Below, in pieces: positions 2,640 to 18,964 of a DNA stretch of 64,000 bases. Source of the stretch: Verrucomicrobiia bacterium (GTDB taxonomy: Bacteria > Verrucomicrobiota > Verrucomicrobiia > Verrucomicrobiales > Akkermansiaceae); the NCBI GenBank assembly GCA_030432565.1, contig JAUIGV010000029.1:1-64000 (forward strand). Direction: 5' to 3'. Both the position numbers and the translations under genes were made by a program. Position 1 is the first letter of the stretch. Each line of letters opens with the position of its first letter. The notes under the pieces are model-generated. The model was not told the DNA's origin, did not search any database, and saw only the letters and a list, made by a program, of their open reading frames with translations.

Positions 2640-4037
2640 ATGGTTCTCCCTTTCCAAAACACCTACGCACGCCTGCCCGGGAGCTTCTTTGAAAAAGCTC
2701 AGCCCACTCCCGTCGTTCAGCCCTCTCTTATTGTGCTGAATGATGAATTGGCTTTAACACTCGGAGTCGATCCGGAGTTTCTTCGCAGCAAAGAAGGTCT
2801 CGCAATCCTTGCGGGTAATGCCATTCCCGAAGGAGCCGAACCTCTCGCAATGGCCTACGCCGGCCACCAATTCGGCGGCTTCTCTCCGCAACTCGGTGAC
2901 GGCCGCGCCATCCTGCTCGGCGAGATCGGCGGCAAGGACATTCAGCTCAAAGGGGCCGGACCGACGCCCTTTTCCCGCCGGGGCGATGGCCGCTCCGCTC
3001 TTGGTCCCGTCCTCCGCGAATATCTTGTCTCGGAAGCAATGCACGCGATGGGCATCCCCACCACCCGCGCCCTCGCCGCCGTTGCCAGCGGGGAGTTGGT
3101 CCTCCGCGAGGCTCCCGAAAAAGGAGGCATCTTCACCCGCGTCGCCAGTTCGCATCTCCGCATTGGCACCGCGCAGTTCTTTGCCGCACGCCGTGATCTT
3201 GAGAGCCTGAAGGCCTTGGTCGAATACGCCAATCGTCGCCACTATCCCGGGACTACCGGTGCCCTCGGACTTCTTCAAAAAGTCATCACCCGCCAAGCGG
3301 AACTCGTTGCGAAGTGGATGGGCGTGGGCTTCATCCACGGAGTCATGAACACCGACAACATGAGCCTCTCGGGCGAAACCATTGACTACGGTCCCTGCGC
3401 TTTCATGGACCACTTTGATCCCGCCCGGAAATTCAGCTACATCGATCAGCAGGGCCGCTACGCCTATCAAAACCAGCCCGGCATCGCCCAATGGAATCTC
3501 ACCCGCCTCGCCGAAGCTCTTCTCCCGCTCATCGATAACGACGCAGAAAAAGCGGTCGAACTGGCCAAGGCTGAGCTCGAAAACTTCCCCGCACTTTTCA
3601 AGGCGGCCTACCACGAAGTCTTCTCGAAAAAGATTGGCCTCGTTCAGAACAAGGACGAGGAATTGATCCAATCCCTTCTCGATCTCATGGCGAAGGAGAA
3701 GGCCGACTTCACCCTCGTCTTCCGCTGTCTCGGCGAGGGGCGCGAGAGCTTCCTAGCGCAATTTCAAAACGACGCGAAAGCCCGGGAATGGCACGATCGT
3801 TGGCAGACCTCGGGCGAGCCGGACACCTCACTCATGCACACCATGAATCCGGCTTTCATCCCCCGAAATCACCGCATTGAAGAGGTCATCGAAGCTGCCA
3901 AACAGGACAACTTTTATCCCTTCCGGGAACTCCTTCGGGTCCTGCAACGACCTTACCTGAACCAACCCGAATTTTCGAAATACCAACGTCCGCCCGCTCC
4001 GGACGAGGTGGTCTGTGCCACCTTCTGCGGAACTTGA
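2640..4037 (+). CDS. selO: Protein adenylyltransferase SelO (YdiU/UPF0061 family)
   Basis: SelO is a pseudokinase-fold enzyme that transfers AMP from ATP to protein Ser/Thr/Tyr residues and is linked to redox stress. The 465-residue product has the family length. Landmarks are AGHQFGGFSPQLGDGRA (from residue 74), the QLKGAGPTPFSRRGDGR loop, and HGVMNTDNMS with D239 followed by IDYGPCAF with D249, which match the catalytic and metal-binding Asp pair of the family. The C-terminus is TFCGT. That terminal Cys lies where animal SelO carries selenocysteine; here it is an ordinary TGC codon. No signal peptide, so cytoplasmic. It lies 55 bases upstream of the GH63 gene in the same direction. Identification is firm; its protein targets are unknown. 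Confidence 0.93.
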   Translation: MVLPFQNTYARLPGSFFEKAQPTPVVQPSLIVLNDELALTLGVDPEFLRSKEGLAILAGNAIPEGAEPLAMAYAGHQFGGFSPQLGDGRAILLGEIGGKDIQLKGAGPTPFSRRGDGRSALGPVLREYLVSEAMHAMGIPTTRALAAVASGELVLREAPEKGGIFTRVASSHLRIGTAQFFAARRDLESLKALVEYANRRHYPGTTGALGLLQKVITRQAELVAKWMGVGFIHGVMNTDNMSLSGETIDYGPCAFMDHFDPARKFSYIDQQGRYAYQNQPGIAQWNLTRLAEALLPLIDNDAEKAVELAKAELENFPALFKAAYHEVFSKKIGLVQNKDEELIQSLLDLMAKEKADFTLVFRCLGEGRESFLAQFQNDAKAREWHDRWQTSGEPDTSLMHTMNPAFIPRNHRIEEVIEAAKQDNFYPFRELLRVLQRPYLNQPEFSKYQRPPAPDEVVCATFCGT

Positions 4038-8735: not shown

Positions 8736-11700
8736 CTACCGGCTGATCGCTCTCACCCGCACAAAGAACCGGTCACCGGGAAGGACTGTCGCCGTCCAAA
8801 CCTCCGGTTCACGACCACTGAGTATGAAACCTTCCGAAGACCAGGTCTTAAGGTCGGCACTCCACTCAGGAACGACCATCACGTCGTCAGCCCCGGGAGC
8901 CAGTGGGATCGTCATCGTCAATTGTTCCAGGTCAAACGCCGGATCACCGGTCAAGGCATAGCTCAAAAGCCCACCACCTTCGTAAGGCACCACATCGCTT
9001 TCTCCGGGGTTCCCACCATCGGCAACACTGCTCCGCCAGCTCCTGGGATCGGCATGGTCCGGGACACCCGAGGGATCGATTAAGACGAGACTTCTTCCCG
9101 CCCCATCCGCCTGGACAGACCATGGAAAGCTGTCGTCGTAGTTTAATTCGCGCAGAGTCATTTCGTCCCCATAGGAAAGAGTCACCGACTCTCCGCCATT
9201 GCTTAGTCCACCCGAAAAATACTCCCCCGTCACCGGAAGAGCATTTCCGTAGACCGCCTCAAATGCGGCAACATTGCGCACCAACAAAACGTGTTCACCC
9301 GGGCCAAGGGCGCTGATTGTTCCTGCTGAAAAATCGAACTCAATACCATCCGTAAAGCGCAACGGCCCCAGTAGGAGTGTCTCATTGCCAACATTCATCA
9401 ACTCAATAAATTCCAGCTCACCATCACCTTCCGGATGATACATGATTTCACTGATCACCAATCCCGCGAGGTAAGGAGCAAGGTCAGGATGCCCCGCAAT
9501 GAACGAATGAGGTTCCGACCAATGACTCCACCTCCCACTGCTATCCTGATGACGAACACGGGCACGATAGCTGCTTCCGGACTTCAATACGCCGGGTGGC
9601 ACAGCCTGGCTGCTGTCAAAAACACCTAACACTCCGCTCTCCCAAATGGCGTCCACTTCATAGGGTTGCTCCACCCCCGCCTCGTAATTTGGAGCAGCGG
9701 GATCCGAGACCTCGGCAATTCGCCAACTCATGGCGGAAAAGGTTCCGGCCCCGTTGGGATCAGCGAAGGCCGTGCTCGAAAAAGCCAAAGCATCGGTCGG
9801 ATAGCCAACGGCTCCCGAATAGGTAATCACCGGAGTGGTCGGGATATTGTTGTCCGCAACTTCGTCCACGAGGTTGTCGTAGCCGTATCCGCCAGGTTGC
9901 ATGAACTTCCTTATGTAGTCCATTTGCCCTTCGTGATCTGCTGAGATGAGAGTACGGGTATATGTCCGACCGGCTGGATCCGAACTTCCCGTAAGGACAT
10001 TATAAGATCCCTTGAACTGGCCGGGTGTCCGGGGGTTGTAGTCCCAGGCAAAAAGGTCCATATCAGCGAGAGTGAGGGGCTGCCCGGTTGGATTGACGAT
10101 CTCGACCAACTCGGACATGACGGTATCGACGGCCTTGGCATTAAAGAGAAGATCGAGCACCTCACGCTGTTGGTTTTCAGCCTCAAGTACATTTTGGGGA
10201 TAGCGGGGGTCGATGCACAATCGGAAGCGATCCCACGTATAATACTTGGGGGTTAGTTGAAACATGGTGTCGCAATCCCACGGCATCATGGTCCACTTTC
10301 CTGTCTCGGGATTGTGATAATAATAACCTTGCCGACCATCCCGCTGATCATAGTGAGTCACGGCTTCGGCAACCGCCTTGTAACGCCCGTAGCTCGCGAC
10401 GTCTGTATTCTCGTGCCACCATTCCTGGGTCTTGCCAGTCGTCATGGCACTGCGAATGGCACTGAAATCTCCCGGCCCTTTGGGCTCATCTGAGCCCTGG
10501 TTGTCCTGCTGAATTTCGGCGTCCAGTTTGTAGACATTCCCATCGGGCAATCCACGATCTTTGAGAAAGCGACCGCTTGGCACCTCGACACTGTGATAGA
10601 GTCCCCAAAGATCGCCCCGGTATTGATCATTACCGGATTGTTCAAGCGATTCATCGATTACTCGAAAGTGAAAATAACTCGTCCGGCTTGAAGGAACTCC
10701 CGCAAGGTCAAAGAGTCGATATGTGATGCATTCATCCACTCCGGCCATTCCTCGGTTCACGTAGGTCCAGGGTGCGGTGCCACCATTGACTTTCATGTTG
10801 CGCCAGGGCGAATCCACTTTTTTGCCAAAATTATCGCGCGCTTCAAATTCATGCCCCCGGTTGAAGCGAAAGTGCCACTTGTTCTTGCCGGTTCGATAGG
10901 TCGATCCTTCGCCCCGGATGTTGAATCTGATGTGATCGTAAACCCGGCCGTCATAGATCATCGTCCCCCAAAATCTCGTATTGCGAGAACCCGATGAATA
11001 TTGGCAATTCGTGACATCCTGGGCCGTCGCGATCAGGTGATAGACCGGAACCGTCTCCAAAACCTGGCTGGAGAAGGTTTCCGCCGTCGTCACCCCTGGT
11101 CGTGCTGACGCCGTCCACGAAGGTACCCCATCGTAACAGAAGTAGGCAAAATTCGGCTGTGGATCATCAAATAAGGGAACGACAACCTCACTCCCGCCCC
11201 CGCTGGTCGCTCTGATCCGATATCGGATGAGACGACGGTGAGCCTGCTCCGAAGCGGGAATCATCGCGGTAAAACGATCGTCACCGGCCTCAGAATCCCC
11301 GTTCATACCATCATCTCTCATCACGAGGTCTTCCCATCCGTTTTCGTAACCGGCATCCGTCAACCTGACATAAGCTCCGGGTTCGACCACCTGATAGGAA
11401 AGCGTCACTCCGGCAACTCCCACAAGCCCTGTGACCTTTGCCGTGATCTCCACCTCTTGACTGGAAACCGGCTGCTCGGGGAAGTGTTTGACCTGCCGGA
11501 TCTGCGGAGGAGGCAAAAGACTAAAGGTGGCATTGGGAGCGCCTGGACTGGGGTCTGCCAAATCAGAACCCGGAGGCGGAGTCTCCAACCCGGCATCAAT
11601 CGATAAATCTCCGCTGCCTGGATTTGAATTGAACACTTGAATGGCAATCGTATTTGTTCCCGGCTGAAGATAGGAGCTCGTCCCCCCAATCACGGTTTCC

Positions 11701-13634
11701 TCCCAAGCCGCTTCATGACTCTGCGCGAACCCGGACGGTGGAGGAAAAGGAATCTCTCCACTCGCAAGCGAGAACCGCTCCACTTCCTGTCCGTTGATAT
11801 ACACGACACAACCATCATCAAAATATGCCCGTAGAAGAAGGGATGACGGAATCCCCGAGCCTGGAGCGATCGTAAATTGCCGTCGCAAAAACAAGCTAAT
11901 ATAGTTACCTTGCATTCCCGAGATCACCGTTGCGTCGTCACCGTCTCCATAGCCGATGGGAGTTTGCCCGGAGAGCCACTCTCCATCCACCGTTTCATCA
12001 TACCCATTCTCAGTCCAGTTCTTCCCGGATCCATCATTCGCAGGCAGGCTGGTTCCAGGCCGATAACTCCAATCCGTGCTCCCGGCGGACAAAAAAGTGA
12101 CCTCGGGACCATTGTAGCCGGATCTCGCGCTCCGCCACGAACCACCCAGATCGTTATCCAATTGAGGATTGATCAACTCCATCGAAGGGCCTTCTCCCTG
12201 CGCCGCCGTCGGCCACGGAAACCCCACCCCATAGTCCACTTTATCAACGGTGGCTCCCGTGGCATCACGCAAACGGATTTCCTCGCCGTCGTTGCTTAAA
12301 CGTCCCGCCCAAGGTCCAAGGGCCGTAACGCCAAACTCGCTCTGCAAGACCGCGGGATCCTCGCCAACGACAAGATATCCTCCTGGCGACAACACCACAC
12401 TCGGAAAGATAAATGCCACCCCCTCCGTCAATTCCCACCCCAAAAGATTTACCGATTTGCTTCCCTGATTGTAGAGTTCGACAAACTCCGCACGCGACGT
12501 TTGATCCTCGGGATCGAAGTGGATTTCGTTGATGACGATGGCATTGGAGGATCCCACAATGACCGGCTCACTGTTTTCATCAGTCGGGTCACTCCCCCCC
12601 GCAATCTCAATCCCATCACCGTGGGAATCGCCGTCGCTGTCCCCGGAATTGGGATCGCTCCCCGGCTGGGCGGAACCCGTAAAAGGCAAATCGGGATTCT
12701 CAATCCCATCGCTCAAACCATCTCCGTCGCTGTCAAAAAGATGCGGATTTGTGCCCGTCGCCACAGCACTCGTCCAGATTCCCGCGTTATTTTCCACGCC
12801 GTCCAACAAACCATCATCATCGCTATCGGAATTCCTGGGATCTGTTCCTGTATCACTCGGTCCGGCCCAAACTCCGCTGCCCGATTCCACGCCATCTTCC
12901 AAACCGTCATCATCCGAGTCTGGATCCTGTGGATCAGTTTCTGCCTGGAATTCCTCCAGATTTGACGACCCATCGGCATCAGCATCACCTTCCGCATCAT
13001 CAAGATCCTTGTTCAATCCATTCGAATCCTCCCACTCATCCGGCATTCCATCTCCGTCGCCGTCGGGCAGCACTGCATTCATCGGGCCAATCGCAATCGC
13101 ATCGGCAAAAACATAAGTCGTCCCCGACGCCGAGGCATCGTCGTTCAGAGTGACCGTCAAGTTTCCATCGCTCACCGTTGCCCGTCCCAACAAGGCAAAG
13201 TTGATCGATCTCCCACCGCCATCCTGTAACACCAAATCCCCCGGATTCCCCGCCCGCATATTCTTGATCACTGCCCCAACGCCGTCACTCACTTGAAAGG
13301 GAGCGTCGGTCGTTAAATTTCCCTGGGCTCCATTTCGCCACGAAGCATAAACATCAACCTCCCCATTCGCCAAACCGGTGAACTCCCACACCGCTTCGGT
13401 ATTGCTTCCCCCTCCATTATCCCAACGGCGGTCGCCGTTCCAGGAGTCGGCCTGACCGGTATCCTGACCGGCAAAAGGTCCCGCGGTTTCCGTGTATCCA
13501 GGCGCACCATCGCTGTTGTCAATCACCAGGAATTGGTCTCCGCTTTCATCAACCACGGTCTCTTGAGCATTCGCAGACAAGCCGGCCGACAGGAAGAGAA
13601 TCCCCGGAGAGATCAAAGAGAGGAAATACTTCAT
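8736..13634 (-). CDS. Giant secreted multidomain protein: golvesin-like module, TSP3 repeats, two lamin-tail domains, CotH-like domain
   Basis: A 1,632-residue exported protein. Visible order: signal peptide (1-23); one golvesin-like module (about 25-185) with WNGDRRW and YASWRNG; acidic DxDxDG TSP3 calcium repeats (190-355); lamin-tail domain 1 (360-505, VINEIHFDP...EFVELYN); a jelly-roll-like GYGDGDDAT module (510-690); an Ig-like linker (705-830); a CotH-kinase-like domain (855-1165) with FNIRGEGSTYRTGKNKW and MPWDCDTMF; lamin-tail domain 2 (1390-1540, VISEIMYHP...EFIEL); and a C-terminal verrucomicrobial module (1555-1632). No PEP-CTERM signal. CotH relatives phosphorylate secreted proteins, and non-spore formers often fuse the fold to lamin tails; whether this one is active is unknown. 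It starts 17 bases after the upstream gene's stop, so they are probably cotranscribed. Confidence 0.88.
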   Translation of the reverse strand: MKYFLSLISPGILFLSAGLSANAQETVVDESGDQFLVIDNSDGAPGYTETAGPFAGQDTGQADSWNGDRRWDNGGGSNTEAVWEFTGLANGEVDVYASWRNGAQGNLTTDAPFQVSDGVGAVIKNMRAGNPGDLVLQDGGGRSINFALLGRATVSDGNLTVTLNDDASASGTTYVFADAIAIGPMNAVLPDGDGDGMPDEWEDSNGLNKDLDDAEGDADADGSSNLEEFQAETDPQDPDSDDDGLEDGVESGSGVWAGPSDTGTDPRNSDSDDDGLLDGVENNAGIWTSAVATGTNPHLFDSDGDGLSDGIENPDLPFTGSAQPGSDPNSGDSDGDSHGDGIEIAGGSDPTDENSEPVIVGSSNAIVINEIHFDPEDQTSRAEFVELYNQGSKSVNLLGWELTEGVAFIFPSVVLSPGGYLVVGEDPAVLQSEFGVTALGPWAGRLSNDGEEIRLRDATGATVDKVDYGVGFPWPTAAQGEGPSMELINPQLDNDLGGSWRSARSGYNGPEVTFLSAGSTDWSYRPGTSLPANDGSGKNWTENGYDETVDGEWLSGQTPIGYGDGDDATVISGMQGNYISLFLRRQFTIAPGSGIPSSLLLRAYFDDGCVVYINGQEVERFSLASGEIPFPPPSGFAQSHEAAWEETVIGGTSSYLQPGTNTIAIQVFNSNPGSGDLSIDAGLETPPPGSDLADPSPGAPNATFSLLPPPQIRQVKHFPEQPVSSQEVEITAKVTGLVGVAGVTLSYQVVEPGAYVRLTDAGYENGWEDLVMRDDGMNGDSEAGDDRFTAMIPASEQAHRRLIRYRIRATSGGGSEVVVPLFDDPQPNFAYFCYDGVPSWTASARPGVTTAETFSSQVLETVPVYHLIATAQDVTNCQYSSGSRNTRFWGTMIYDGRVYDHIRFNIRGEGSTYRTGKNKWHFRFNRGHEFEARDNFGKKVDSPWRNMKVNGGTAPWTYVNRGMAGVDECITYRLFDLAGVPSSRTSYFHFRVIDESLEQSGNDQYRGDLWGLYHSVEVPSGRFLKDRGLPDGNVYKLDAEIQQDNQGSDEPKGPGDFSAIRSAMTTGKTQEWWHENTDVASYGRYKAVAEAVTHYDQRDGRQGYYYHNPETGKWTMMPWDCDTMFQLTPKYYTWDRFRLCIDPRYPQNVLEAENQQREVLDLLFNAKAVDTVMSELVEIVNPTGQPLTLADMDLFAWDYNPRTPGQFKGSYNVLTGSSDPAGRTYTRTLISADHEGQMDYIRKFMQPGGYGYDNLVDEVADNNIPTTPVITYSGAVGYPTDALAFSSTAFADPNGAGTFSAMSWRIAEVSDPAAPNYEAGVEQPYEVDAIWESGVLGVFDSSQAVPPGVLKSGSSYRARVRHQDSSGRWSHWSEPHSFIAGHPDLAPYLAGLVISEIMYHPEGDGELEFIELMNVGNETLLLGPLRFTDGIEFDFSAGTISALGPGEHVLLVRNVAAFEAVYGNALPVTGEYFSGGLSNGGESVTLSYGDEMTLRELNYDDSFPWSVQADGAGRSLVLIDPSGVPDHADPRSWRSSVADGGNPGESDVVPYEGGGLLSYALTGDPAFDLEQLTMTIPLAPGADDVMVVPEWSADLKTWSSEGFILSGREPEVWTATVLPGDRFFVRVRAISR

Positions 13635-15451: not shown

Positions 15452-18400
15452 TCACTCGCTTTTCAAAGCATTTAACCTATCCCTCAAATCCGCATTCTTC
15501 CTCGCTTCCGGCAAAGCCAAGGCTCTCTCTAAAACCGTCATTGCTTCCTGCTCCTCGCCATTGGCCTGCAGGCATTGCACCAAGGTGGACAATACCCCGG
15601 CATTGCCAAAATTACCTGCCTCCGCCGCCCGCCGGGCAAATTTCAAGGCCTCTGTCTGATCCTCCAAAATTAGATTTTCCGACAACACCCGCGCCAGCCC
15701 ATGCAGCGCCATGACCCGGTTTGGATCCAGGCTCAAGGCCTTCTGAAAATACTCCCTCGCTTCATGGGCCCGTCCCGCGTCCAGGCACCGGATGCCGGCG
15801 TTCGAGAGCACTCCCGGAAAAAGTGGCTGTGGCTCCATGAACCGGGCGTAGCGAGTCACCAAATCTCTTCCCTCCTCAAAAAATCCTCTCTGAAACAAAC
15901 GATCTGCGAAGTTGAGCATCACAAAGTTCTTCGGCGCAAAGTGCCAGCGCCCCTCAAATGGCAGGGTCCCCTTTCGCCGCTCCTCAAAAGGCAAAGCCAA
16001 TCGCTCCATCTCCGAGATTGCCTGCTCCGGCAAAACCTTCCCCTTGTAGATCGCCACCAAACGCCAATTTTGATCAATCAAGAAGCTGGTCGGAACCGGC
16101 AAAGGTCGCTGGGCCACCAGCAATTCATCATTCGTCAATTGCAGAAACCTCACCAGGGACTCTGTGGCGTTTCCGGAGAAAAATGGGAACCTCATCCCAT
16201 TCAGTCTTCTCGCCGCCTCTCTCGAGGCCTTCTTTCCTCCTTCCAGACCATCGACATTCAGCACGATGACGCCCAGCCCCGCTGCCTCAAACTGGCGCCT
16301 GGCATCGGCAAGCTCACTCAACTCCTCCAGACACGCCTCACATTCAGCCGACCACAAATTCACCAAAAGCCCACGCCTCTTCCCAAGAGGTTGATCAAAC
16401 AACTCCACCGACTCGCCCGCATTCGACTCGTATTTGAGAAGTGGCAAAGGCAGGGGAATCCCCAGAACGATCCCGTTCGTCCGACCGGATTCCGGCAAAT
16501 CCTCCGGTATCACCGACACCGGTTCCACTCCCGGATTGGAGAATGACACCGCTCTTCCTTCCCCCTCCTTGAGGCGATACGCCTCTCCGGATTTCAAACC
16601 CGAAAATTCCTCCTCATCCCCGCCCGGCCAACGCACCGTGACCGATTTCACCTCATTTTCCCCGAAACCAAAATGCAGCCACTTGCTCGACTGCGACAGA
16701 TACCCTTCGCCCGCTCTCAAGGTCTTCGTCACTGGTTTCCCGCTCATCGCCATCACGGTGACCCTGGCCCCGATGGCATCGCGATTGCACTTCGTTCCCT
16801 CGAGCAGCAGCCGTAGGGACCTCCCCGGCCACTTTGCTTCATTCCGAAAAAAGCGCACCTGGGGTCCCGACCGGTTCGACATCCACAAATCCAAATCCCC
16901 ATCCTGATCCCAATCGCAAAACGCCACCCCCGTTCCATCCTCCGGCAAACTCAATCCGCTCACTTCCGAGATATCCGCAAAGCGACGCCCACCACCGGTA
17001 TTCAAAAATCCACAATGTCGCTCCCGGCCGCTAAAACTCCGTCCCTGCCGCAGCAAGGTCACCAACTCGTCGTCGCTCGATCCCGGCAACTGTGCAAAAC
17101 CCGCCCCAAACGTTCCCCTTATCCCTTCCTGCGACCCGACCGATCGCCAGTAAAAGCTTCACAAATCACCGGTATCCGGCGCGGTGACATAGCCATTCGC
17201 AACCACCACATCCTCCCACCCATCGTTATTCAAATCTCCAAAAACCGAACTCCAGGCCCATCGCGCCGTCTCCACCCCGCGCACCGCACCCACCTCTTGA
17301 AAAGTCCCGTTGCCCAAATTCTCAAACATCGAATTCCCCTTCACAAACCGCCGGTAAAGCCCCTTCTCTTCATCGGCCAACCAAGGCCGGAATTTCTCCT
17401 GCGTGAAAATCCGCCCGCCCGCCGAACTGAACATATTCCCCACATACAAATCCATATCACCATCCCGATCATAATCAGCCCAACTCGCCGACATCCCCGG
17501 CCCCGCGTCCACCACCCCCGCAGCCGAAGCTACCTCCACAAACTGTCCCCCTTCATTTCGATAGAGGCAATTATGCCCGTAATCATTCGCGACATAGAGA
17601 TCCTGATCACCATCGTTGTCGTAATCCTCCCACGCCGCGGCCAGACTATGCCGCCTATTCTTCGCATCCAGTCCCACCTCTCTGGTAACGTCCCGAAAGG
17701 CCCAGCCCTTCCCCTCCGCCTGACCACTTGAAAAAAGCACGTTGGCCCCACCATCGTTCGAGTTGTGCAAAACCCCGCTTCCCCGCACCTCGCCACGCCT
17801 CGCCCCCGCCCTCGCATAATCAAAACAAAGATAAAGATCCAGATCCGAGTCCCCATCGAAATCCACTGCAGTCAGGGACTCGACGTCCTCATCCGCCGTC
17901 TTAAGGACCGCCCTCCTGACAAACTTGGCTCCTCCGGTATTCTCCAGGATCAAGAGCCCTGAATTTGTCGCCAAGGCCAAATCACCATCTCCGTCGTTGT
18001 CCAAATCCACAATCAAGGACGCCGAGGTGAAATCCAGCCAATCCGCACCCGATTCCGTAGACACATCCCGCGCCGTCCCATCCGCCTCATGCAAGAACAA
18101 GCGGTTCGGCAAACCCGATGGCTGGGGCACATACAGGTCATCCCTTCCGTCACCATTCACATCTCCCACCGCCACTCCCGAACGCTGGCCCAAAAACGAC
18201 CCGTGAAAAATTTCGACCCGCTGCAACCATTCATCCAGCCCAAACCGTAACTGTTTACGCCAGGAATCGTTTCCTCCCAGAACTTCCTCCTCCCGATTCA
18301 CAAACCAGGGACCTTCTCCTCCCCTCCACACCACTTCTTCAAAATCCTCGACCACCAGCGACTTCAAATAGAGCTCCCCATCCCGCCGCGCCCAATCACA

Positions 18401-18964
18401 CCGCCACTCCGCCCGCTGCTGAACCCTGCCACTCCCGGTGATATTCCCCGATGATTCAAACCGAATTCTTGTGACCAATACTCCGCTCTTCTCCTCAACC
18501 CGGAAAACCTTGAACAACTCATATTCGGGCTGTCCCTCCTCGTAAACCGCAAGCAAGGATTCCACCGACTTTGAAAAGCCATCCATCCCCACCTTTAACA
18601 TTTCCCCCGATTTCCCCCTCGAGACAGTTACTCCGTCTTCCTCATATTTGACCTTCAGCTCCGTCGGACGCAACGGAGCCATCTCGAAGCCTTCCAAAAG
18701 TCGCTTCCCACTCTCCAGGTGCACCAACCCTTTGATTGCCGACTTCACCTCCTCGGCAGTCTGCTCGCTCTCCCACTCGACTCCCGGGGCCGTCTCGATC
18801 ACAGGCTGCCCTACCACCGACACCAGCACATTCGCGCCATCCCGCATTTCCCTCGTAGAATCATCGCCTTCGTTTTCTCCAGACACCGCTCCTTCCTTCT
18901 CCCCACACCCGCAGCATAGAATCCCCGACAATCCTGCCAAGCCTAGCCATCTTCCCCTTTTCAT
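15452..18964 (-). CDS. FG-GAP/UnbV (CRTAC1-like) lipoprotein with thioredoxin-like and TPR domains, interrupted by one in-frame TGA
   Basis: Read through one TGA (17159-17161, residue 602), this is a 1,170-residue exported protein. The ATG at 18962-18964 opens a signal peptide with cysteines at the end of its hydrophobic core (ILCCGCG), so a lipoprotein is likely. Residues about 260-600 hold FG-GAP/VCBS repeats (VGDVNGDGRDDLYVP, ADYDRDGDMDLYVGN). After the TGA come another repeat, an ASPIC/UnbV domain (715-790), a TlpA-like thioredoxin fold with a CEAC site at 875-878, and TPRs (1020-1170). The part after the TGA has no ATG or GTG start in a sensible place, only a TTG at 17087-17089 inside a domain. 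Either the TGA encodes selenocysteine or the gene carries a fresh nonsense mutation. Domain calls are secure; the reading of the TGA is not. Confidence 0.75.
17129..17161 (-). other. In-frame UGA followed by SECIS-like hairpin
   Basis: The UGA (17161-17159) interrupts GDL-UGA-SFYWRS. Starting nine bases after it, the RNA can fold into CUG, a bulged G, CGAUC, loop GGUCG, GGUCG, CAG: eight pairs, one of them G-U, with a one-base bulge. Counting the U of UGA as 1, GGUC lies at 21-24; in the E. coli fdhF SECIS it lies at 22-25, also in the apical loop. The bulged base is G rather than the U seen in E. coli. This supports, but does not prove, selenocysteine insertion. Confidence 0.45.

Follow-up and report, generated by a model that had tools for sequence, protein, structure and literature searches.

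Selenocysteine candidate gene in the window

The window analysed here is a stretch of 64,000 nucleotides from a Verrucomicrobiia bacterium (assembly GCA_030432565.1, contig JAUIGV010000029.1, positions 1 to 64,000). Its minus strand carries a long gene that joins a CRTAC1-like beta-propeller and an UnbV domain to a thioredoxin-like domain and TPR repeats, and that is interrupted by one in-frame TGA codon, proposed here to encode selenocysteine (Sec). Behind the TGA lies a hairpin that resembles a bacterial Sec insertion sequence (SECIS). The features of the gene are given below. Residues are numbered along the read-through protein, P0001, where the TGA codon has number 607; counted from the ATG, it is codon 602.

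15452 to 18964, minus strand: proposed Sec-containing CRTAC1/UnbV-TlpA-TPR gene, read through the internal TGA; ATG at 18964, final TGA stop at 15452-15454.
17159 to 17161, minus strand: in-frame TGA, the proposed Sec codon; codon 602 from the ATG, residue 607 of P0001.
17129 to 17150, minus strand: SECIS-like hairpin with a lower stem, a bulged base, a 5-bp upper stem (17142-17146 with 17132-17136) and the loop GGUCG (17137-17141).
16559 to 18334, minus strand: CRTAC1-like FG-GAP beta-propeller plus UnbV/ASPIC domain, model residues 216-807.
16580 to 16777, minus strand: UnbV_ASPIC domain PF07593, residues 735-800; Pfam 59.7 bits, cut-off 23.4.
16058 to 16444, minus strand: TlpA/ResA-like thioredoxin domain (AhpC-TSA), residues 846-974; PF00578 39.5 bits, cut-off 26.
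16331 to 16342, minus strand: CEAC (CxxC) site of the thioredoxin-like domain, proposed to reduce Sec in cis.
15677 to 15784, minus strand: TPR repeats, residues 1066-1101, from Pfam.
18902 to 18964, minus strand: N-terminal signal-like sequence with a Cys-rich end (MKRGRWLGLAGLSGILCCGCG), for which lipoprotein export is a judgement by eye only.

Pfam recognises FG-GAP repeats in the protein and, after the TGA, UnbV_ASPIC, AhpC-TSA and the TPRs. Most of this layout had been described in an initial annotation of the stretch and is borne out: the coordinates confirm the TGA as the 602nd codon and put the gene on the minus strand, which had not been mentioned, the translation runs without interruption on either side of it, the UnbV domain and the TPRs are matched by Pfam, and CEAC is present in the translation. 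The 569 sense codons that had been counted after the TGA are 568 by the coordinates. The hairpin was also found as it had been described, in that it starts at the ninth base past the TGA, has one bulged base and holds GGUC within the loop GGUCG; its predicted fold has an energy of -13 kcal/mol.

Conservation of the TGA codon and of the hairpin

Six peptide patterns, all lying outside the Sec site, were used to search for homologues in one genome per species across 84,980 species. The best 80 of the 84 stretches that encode a relative, amounting to 79 distinct loci, were kept. The initial annotation had suggested looking for Cys or TGA at the same place in homologues; all 80 alignments holding the site motif have TGA there, in 75 of the 79 loci and at identities down to 28.4 %. 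Around Sec the family motif reads DL[U]SFFWRQVV, and the invariant columns of a 51-member alignment include D605, L606, the U column (entered as C), W611, V614, S650 and E653. Among the four loci without TGA, one stops short of the site (L072) and three are distant FG-GAP proteins (L094-L096). The remaining 25 alignments across the site are with FG-GAP proteins of at most 29.2 % identity, which lack the motif tryptophan and none of which has Cys there. The family loci come mostly from metagenome bins and, by their record titles, belong to Planctomycetota, Verrucomicrobiota, Lentisphaeria, Acidobacteriota, Aminicenantes, Armatimonadetes and one Thermodesulfobacteriota bin.

A search of 392 Planctomycetota genomes with a short core profile (E 1e-12, 11 candidates scored per genome) gave a match in 103 of them. 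Among the 150 matches listed, 131 hold one TGA and one holds three, and the other 18 run on without a stop; neither TAA nor TAG occurs, so that every interruption is a TGA. Fifty of the TGA matches were fetched, and in all 50 the TGA sits at the Sec site. In all, TGA is found at one and the same codon in 133 distinct sites, which chance nonsense mutation cannot explain.

The 133 sites were aligned codon by codon, and pairing was counted in 114 distinct sites, with the TGA numbered as bases 1-3 and the registers selected after the data had been seen. The main register consists of a stem of bases 16-20 with 26-30, a bulge at base 15 and two further pairs of bases 13-14 with 31-32, and its loop usually reads GGUCG. 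Loop bases 22-23 are GU in 131 of the 133 sites, and bases 21-24 are GGUC in 100. At least five consecutive pairs occur in 103 of the 114 sites, which are spread over three registers with 91, 7 and 5 sites. In 200 draws of a synonymous-codon null that follows each gene's own usage and allows the same three registers, the number averages 11.3 and never exceeds 20. The hairpin occurs in none of the 18 listed relatives without TGA (described in the next section), as this null predicts for sites without selection. Codon choice is strongly skewed as well: TCG makes up 98 % of the Ser codons at +9 (23 % expected) and GTG 94 % of the Val codons at +8 (32 % expected), with some excess over usage at +11, +13 and +17 and none at +12, +14 to +16 and +18.

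The stem also covaries. In the main register, 38 double-changed cells keep their pair, against 9.5 in shuffled data, and 87.5 % of the cells are paired, against 81.3 %; neither value is reached in 500 shuffles, and slid-register controls give at most 16 cells and 56.8 %. For example, base pair 20-26 is A-U in 78 sites and G-C in 19, and as a result a change from Gln to Arg at +6 tends to be accompanied by one from Val to Ala at +8. It is this comparison across homologues (codon fixation, synonymous null and covariation) that places the hairpin above chance. Single folds are not evidence, since the fold of the window hairpin has a modest z of -1.92 against shuffles and seven other example folds range from -1.14 to +0.72. 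Mean folding energy is -10.7 kcal/mol at the TGA sites and -7.7 kcal/mol in the synonymous null. The SECIS-like character that the initial annotation had read into one hairpin is therefore upheld by its conservation in 103 of 114 sites and by its covarying stem.

The bases next to the TGA are constrained too. Where the codon before it (17162-17164 in the window) encodes Leu, TTG is used in 98 of 117 sites, with 15 % expected, and the Ser after the TGA is AGY in 121 of 123; the hairpin leaves both constraints unexplained. An extended stem, in which the TTG before the UGA would pair with bases 31-33, was considered. Full pairing is found in 56 of the 98 TTG sites and in none of the 35 others, and it is not supported as covariation because TTG is kept where the partner bases change.

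Two observations concern single loci of the family. One planctomycete contig carries a tandem pair of TGA-containing family genes (L091:5357 and L091:9226). At L168:2132, the match counted with three TGA, the frame stops again 20 codons past the Sec site; this copy may be a pseudogene or may hold extra Sec.

Sec machinery, relatives without TGA and the thioredoxin CxxC

All four genes for which a search had been suggested by the initial annotation, selA, selB, selC and selD, are found in the host genome, where a search for RNase P served as a check that the genome search works. SelA scores 489.1 bits (cut-off 267.9), SelB 315.6 bits (cut-off 242.25) and SelD 386.7 bits (cut-off 125). The tRNA-Sec scores 54.4 bits (gathering score 47) and is called tRNA-SeC with anticodon tca by ARAGORN. 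SelD has one in-frame TGA in the context SCGG[U]ASKLG (L110:1531-1533) and is itself a selenoprotein candidate. With the protein as query, the host genome gave 36 matches, of which eight, this gene among them, hold one TGA at the same column, one holds a TAA and 27 have no stop. The four paralogues without TGA that were examined (L105-L108) lack the motif segment.

SelB is over its cut-off in 40 of 50 family-bearing genomes from several phyla, and of the ten genomes that fall short, five give no match whatsoever at E 1e-40, which can happen in fragmentary bins. The 387 genomes sampled from the host phylum, of which 25 have SelB over the cut-off, are not a matched control because the 50 family-bearing genomes span several phyla. 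The family itself occurs in two of the 387, both with SelB (full-length profile, E 1e-100, two candidates scored per genome). Among Planctomycetota, 55 of the 57 genomes that carry a TGA copy have SelB over the cut-off, as do 11 of 20 genomes that gave no family match. SelB is thus common in Planctomycetota anyway and near-universal with the family.

The relatives without TGA are all 18 no-stop matches listed for Planctomycetota, down to about 2e-20, each of which was fetched. At the Sec site, six of them have E, four A, three Q, two N, two R and one D; five further rows with a letter in the Sec column are misaligned repeats or a motif-less paralogue. In a midpoint-rooted FastTree tree of 150 members, in which several nodes are weak, the sequences without TGA are nested among the TGA clades, and parsimony on that tree requires three Sec/non-Sec changes and nine CxxC changes. 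These relatives look like losses of Sec-dependent function, as they are nested among TGA clades and have neither the hairpin nor the thioredoxin CxxC.

Of the 134 Sec members, 127 have the CxxC 200-330 residues downstream of the site, as against none of the 18 non-Sec members; L071, L077 and L132 are left out of the count because their contig stretch ends too early. The profile of the thioredoxin-like domain still matches 14 of the 18 non-Sec members, where the domain has no CxxC, and is not found in the other four (L156, L160, L161, L162). On the tree, Sec and CxxC are jointly missing in at least two separate clades. This joint absence in relatives is the main reason why the CxxC is proposed to serve Sec. 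No invariant second Cys near Sec was found in the family alignment; a resolving Cys beside Sec, that of SFSGxERxC, was considered and dropped because it is not conserved.

A structural model predicted from 51 sequences, with Sec entered as Cys, has a mean predicted local distance difference test score (pLDDT) of 86.4 and a predicted template modelling score (pTM) of 0.88. Sec stands at the start of a helix (606-615) in a block of pLDDT 70-75, and the next stretch is below 50. The best structural match of the model is murine CRTAC1 (9etn_A; Z 41.3, root-mean-square deviation 2.2, 460 aligned residues). Foldseek likewise puts murine CRTAC1 first, and structures of ResA and TlpA match the thioredoxin-like domain.

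In the family loci from the first scan, the surroundings were searched for a conserved neighbour gene. The largest cluster holds 16 open reading frames in 12 loci, two of its three example frames being FG-GAP-like by eye, and the other clusters reach at most five loci. No neighbour gene in these loci points to a substrate. In the window itself, a large protein that combines lamin-tail domains with a CotH kinase domain is encoded downstream on the same strand (8736-13634). The window also has a SelO adenylyltransferase gene (2640-4037) with a Cys near the C-terminus (VCATFCGT), an ordinary TGA stop and, by eye, no sign of Sec.

Interpretation and comparison with known systems

From the conserved UGA, the conserved and covarying hairpin and the whole Sec machinery in the genome, we infer decoding by SelB and tRNA-Sec, and it is very probable that the internal TGA is decoded as Sec. 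The plain alternative, in which a Cys or Trp codon became TGA by nonsense mutation or is misread by a sequencing error and the gene is a pseudogene, can draw on the stop itself and on the open frame that starts at TTG 17089 in the downstream part, and on nothing more. Its probability is negligible in view of the same TGA in 80 alignments of 75 loci across phyla, the 132 TGA-holding matches with no other kind of stop among the 150 listed for Planctomycetota, and the codon fixation and stem covariation. Nonsense mutation, sequencing error and TGA as a Trp codon are rejected in view of TGA conservation, the hairpin and the Sec machinery. It is also very improbable that readthrough puts another residue at the UGA (Trp, or by near-cognate suppression) or that the UGA acts as a regulated stop with short and long products, with no Sec involved. 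The UGA-A context and the strong TTG preference before the TGA would fit such readthrough, but SelB is present in most family-bearing genomes (40 of 50, and 55 of 57 in Planctomycetota with a TGA copy), and the hairpin, absent from the 18 relatives without TGA, has a loop and spacing like those of the E. coli fdhF SECIS. The gene's own final stop, moreover, is TGA, so TGA is not generally Trp here.

That Sec decoding goes together with some functional coupling to the CxxC domain is held with good confidence. The specific form of a Sec-CxxC relay, in which Sec is reduced in cis by the fused thioredoxin domain, is favoured only slightly. It is possible, though we rather doubt it, that Sec is a metal ligand or structural residue, or is partnered with another protein, and is not reduced by the fused domain. 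This would agree with the lack of an invariant second Cys near Sec, with two members that have Sec but no recognised thioredoxin domain (L104, L177) and with three that have Sec and a thioredoxin-like domain without CxxC (L058, L164, L165). It does not account for the CxxC in 127 of 134 Sec members as against none of the 18 others, 14 of which keep the domain but not the CxxC.

A number of observations weigh against Sec decoding or against its link to the CxxC. None of the 18 listed relatives without TGA has Cys or Trp at the Sec site, and the literature treats Cys homologues as the rule; the initial annotation had expected Cys as the alternative residue, and by its own rule the E, A, Q, N, R and D found instead would favour mutation. 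SelB is also present in all three Planctomycetota genomes whose listed copies are all without TGA. As for the hairpin, three pairs of the main register show double-sided changes, a number that does not exceed the one from shuffled data (2.6). The relatives without TGA fold at -2.6 to -14.6 kcal/mol, so that overall folding energy, unlike the fixed hairpin, does not separate the TGA sites from them. RNAalifold gives no consensus pair over all 114 sites, probably because the hairpin sits in three registers, and Rfam has no SECIS family match to 17080-17230, the window stretch searched, up to E 10. As for the CxxC, seven Sec members have none in range. Three of these have no thioredoxin match (L163, L104, L177), one is cut by the further stop after 20 codons (L168), and L058, L164 and L165 retain a thioredoxin-like domain. 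Finally, the Sec and CxxC counts ignore kinship, and there are only three Sec/non-Sec changes on a tree with weak nodes.

Under Sec decoding, the following mechanism is proposed. SelB would read the hairpin and deliver Sec via tRNA-Sec at the UGA, and the full protein of about 1170 residues would be made when selenium is available. By its N-terminal sequence the protein is probably exported, and this would be as a lipoprotein. The N-terminus of the helix would lower the pKa of Sec, which would be the redox-active residue in the propeller. A substrate would oxidise Sec, and the CxxC of the TlpA-like domain would re-reduce it in cis; from general knowledge, this domain may in turn be fed by a donor of the DsbD/CcdA type. 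We lean, by a little, towards a Sec-only redox family that is ancient and multi-copy, in which Sec is not replaceable by Cys and the CRTAC1-type propeller is a new selenium scaffold with a thioredoxin donor on the same chain. In such a family, loss of Sec from a lineage would let the site drift to D, E, N, Q, R or A, the SECIS would vanish and the fused thioredoxin domain would lose its CxxC.

The gene very likely represents a new selenoprotein family on the CRTAC1/UnbV scaffold. The family is not in Table 1 of a 2026 inventory of prokaryotic selenoproteins, which lists 119 families (PMC13188914), and for the ten members tested NCBIfam (June 2026) has no model over the Sec region. A literature search, with preprints and most subscription papers outside its reach, gave no link between selenoproteins and UnbV, and the selenoprotein papers that mention FG-GAP or CRTAC1 have unrelated subjects by title and abstract. 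Selenoprotein candidates from Planctomycetes are placed in the supplement of PMC4807772, where this family could already be listed. A 2025 paper states that Cys homologues now seem to exist for every known selenoprotein (PMC12013277), and a family without them would therefore be a real exception. Homology-based discovery of bacterial selenoproteins leans on Cys homologues, although these do not define a selenoprotein. This family, with eight copies in the host genome, seems to break that rule, and the seeming lack of Cys homologues might explain its absence from the 2026 inventory. If the reading as a Sec family is true, Planctomycetota and Verrucomicrobiota use more selenium than is now recognised, and genes of this kind are probably split in two in annotations. 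The family also offers a direct test of what Sec does beyond Cys, and it gives a functional hint for bacterial CRTAC1/UnbV proteins.

The protein has parts in common with several known systems. With CRTAC1 (cartilage acidic protein 1; ASPIC/UnbV, PF07593) it shares the FG-GAP beta-propeller and the UnbV domain, to which it adds the Sec-bearing segment, the C-terminal TlpA-like domain and the TPRs; CRTAC1 is not known to have an annotated Sec. The family hairpin resembles the E. coli fdhF SECIS in its loop, bulged base, GGUC and spacing. Both stand directly after the UGA, and here the GGUC lies in the loop, 17 bases past the UGA. In contrast to the fdhF type, the family hairpin has an upper stem of at least five pairs, a loop that is usually GGUCG, three registers and, for the window, no match in Rfam. 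Glycine reductase selenoprotein A (GrdA) has a fold unrelated to that of this protein. It was likewise once thought to be without Cys homologues, which have since been reported in the 2025 paper (PMC12013277). The TlpA/ResA-like selenoproteins (UGC-containing TlpA; NF041054, WAxxUGC_long) have the ResA/TlpA-like domain in common with the family, two members of which match NF041054 at 49.0 and 29.7, far under its cut-off of 300. In NF041054, to judge by its name, Sec is part of the thioredoxin motif, whereas here that motif is a CxxC and Sec lies 200-330 residues upstream, in the propeller.

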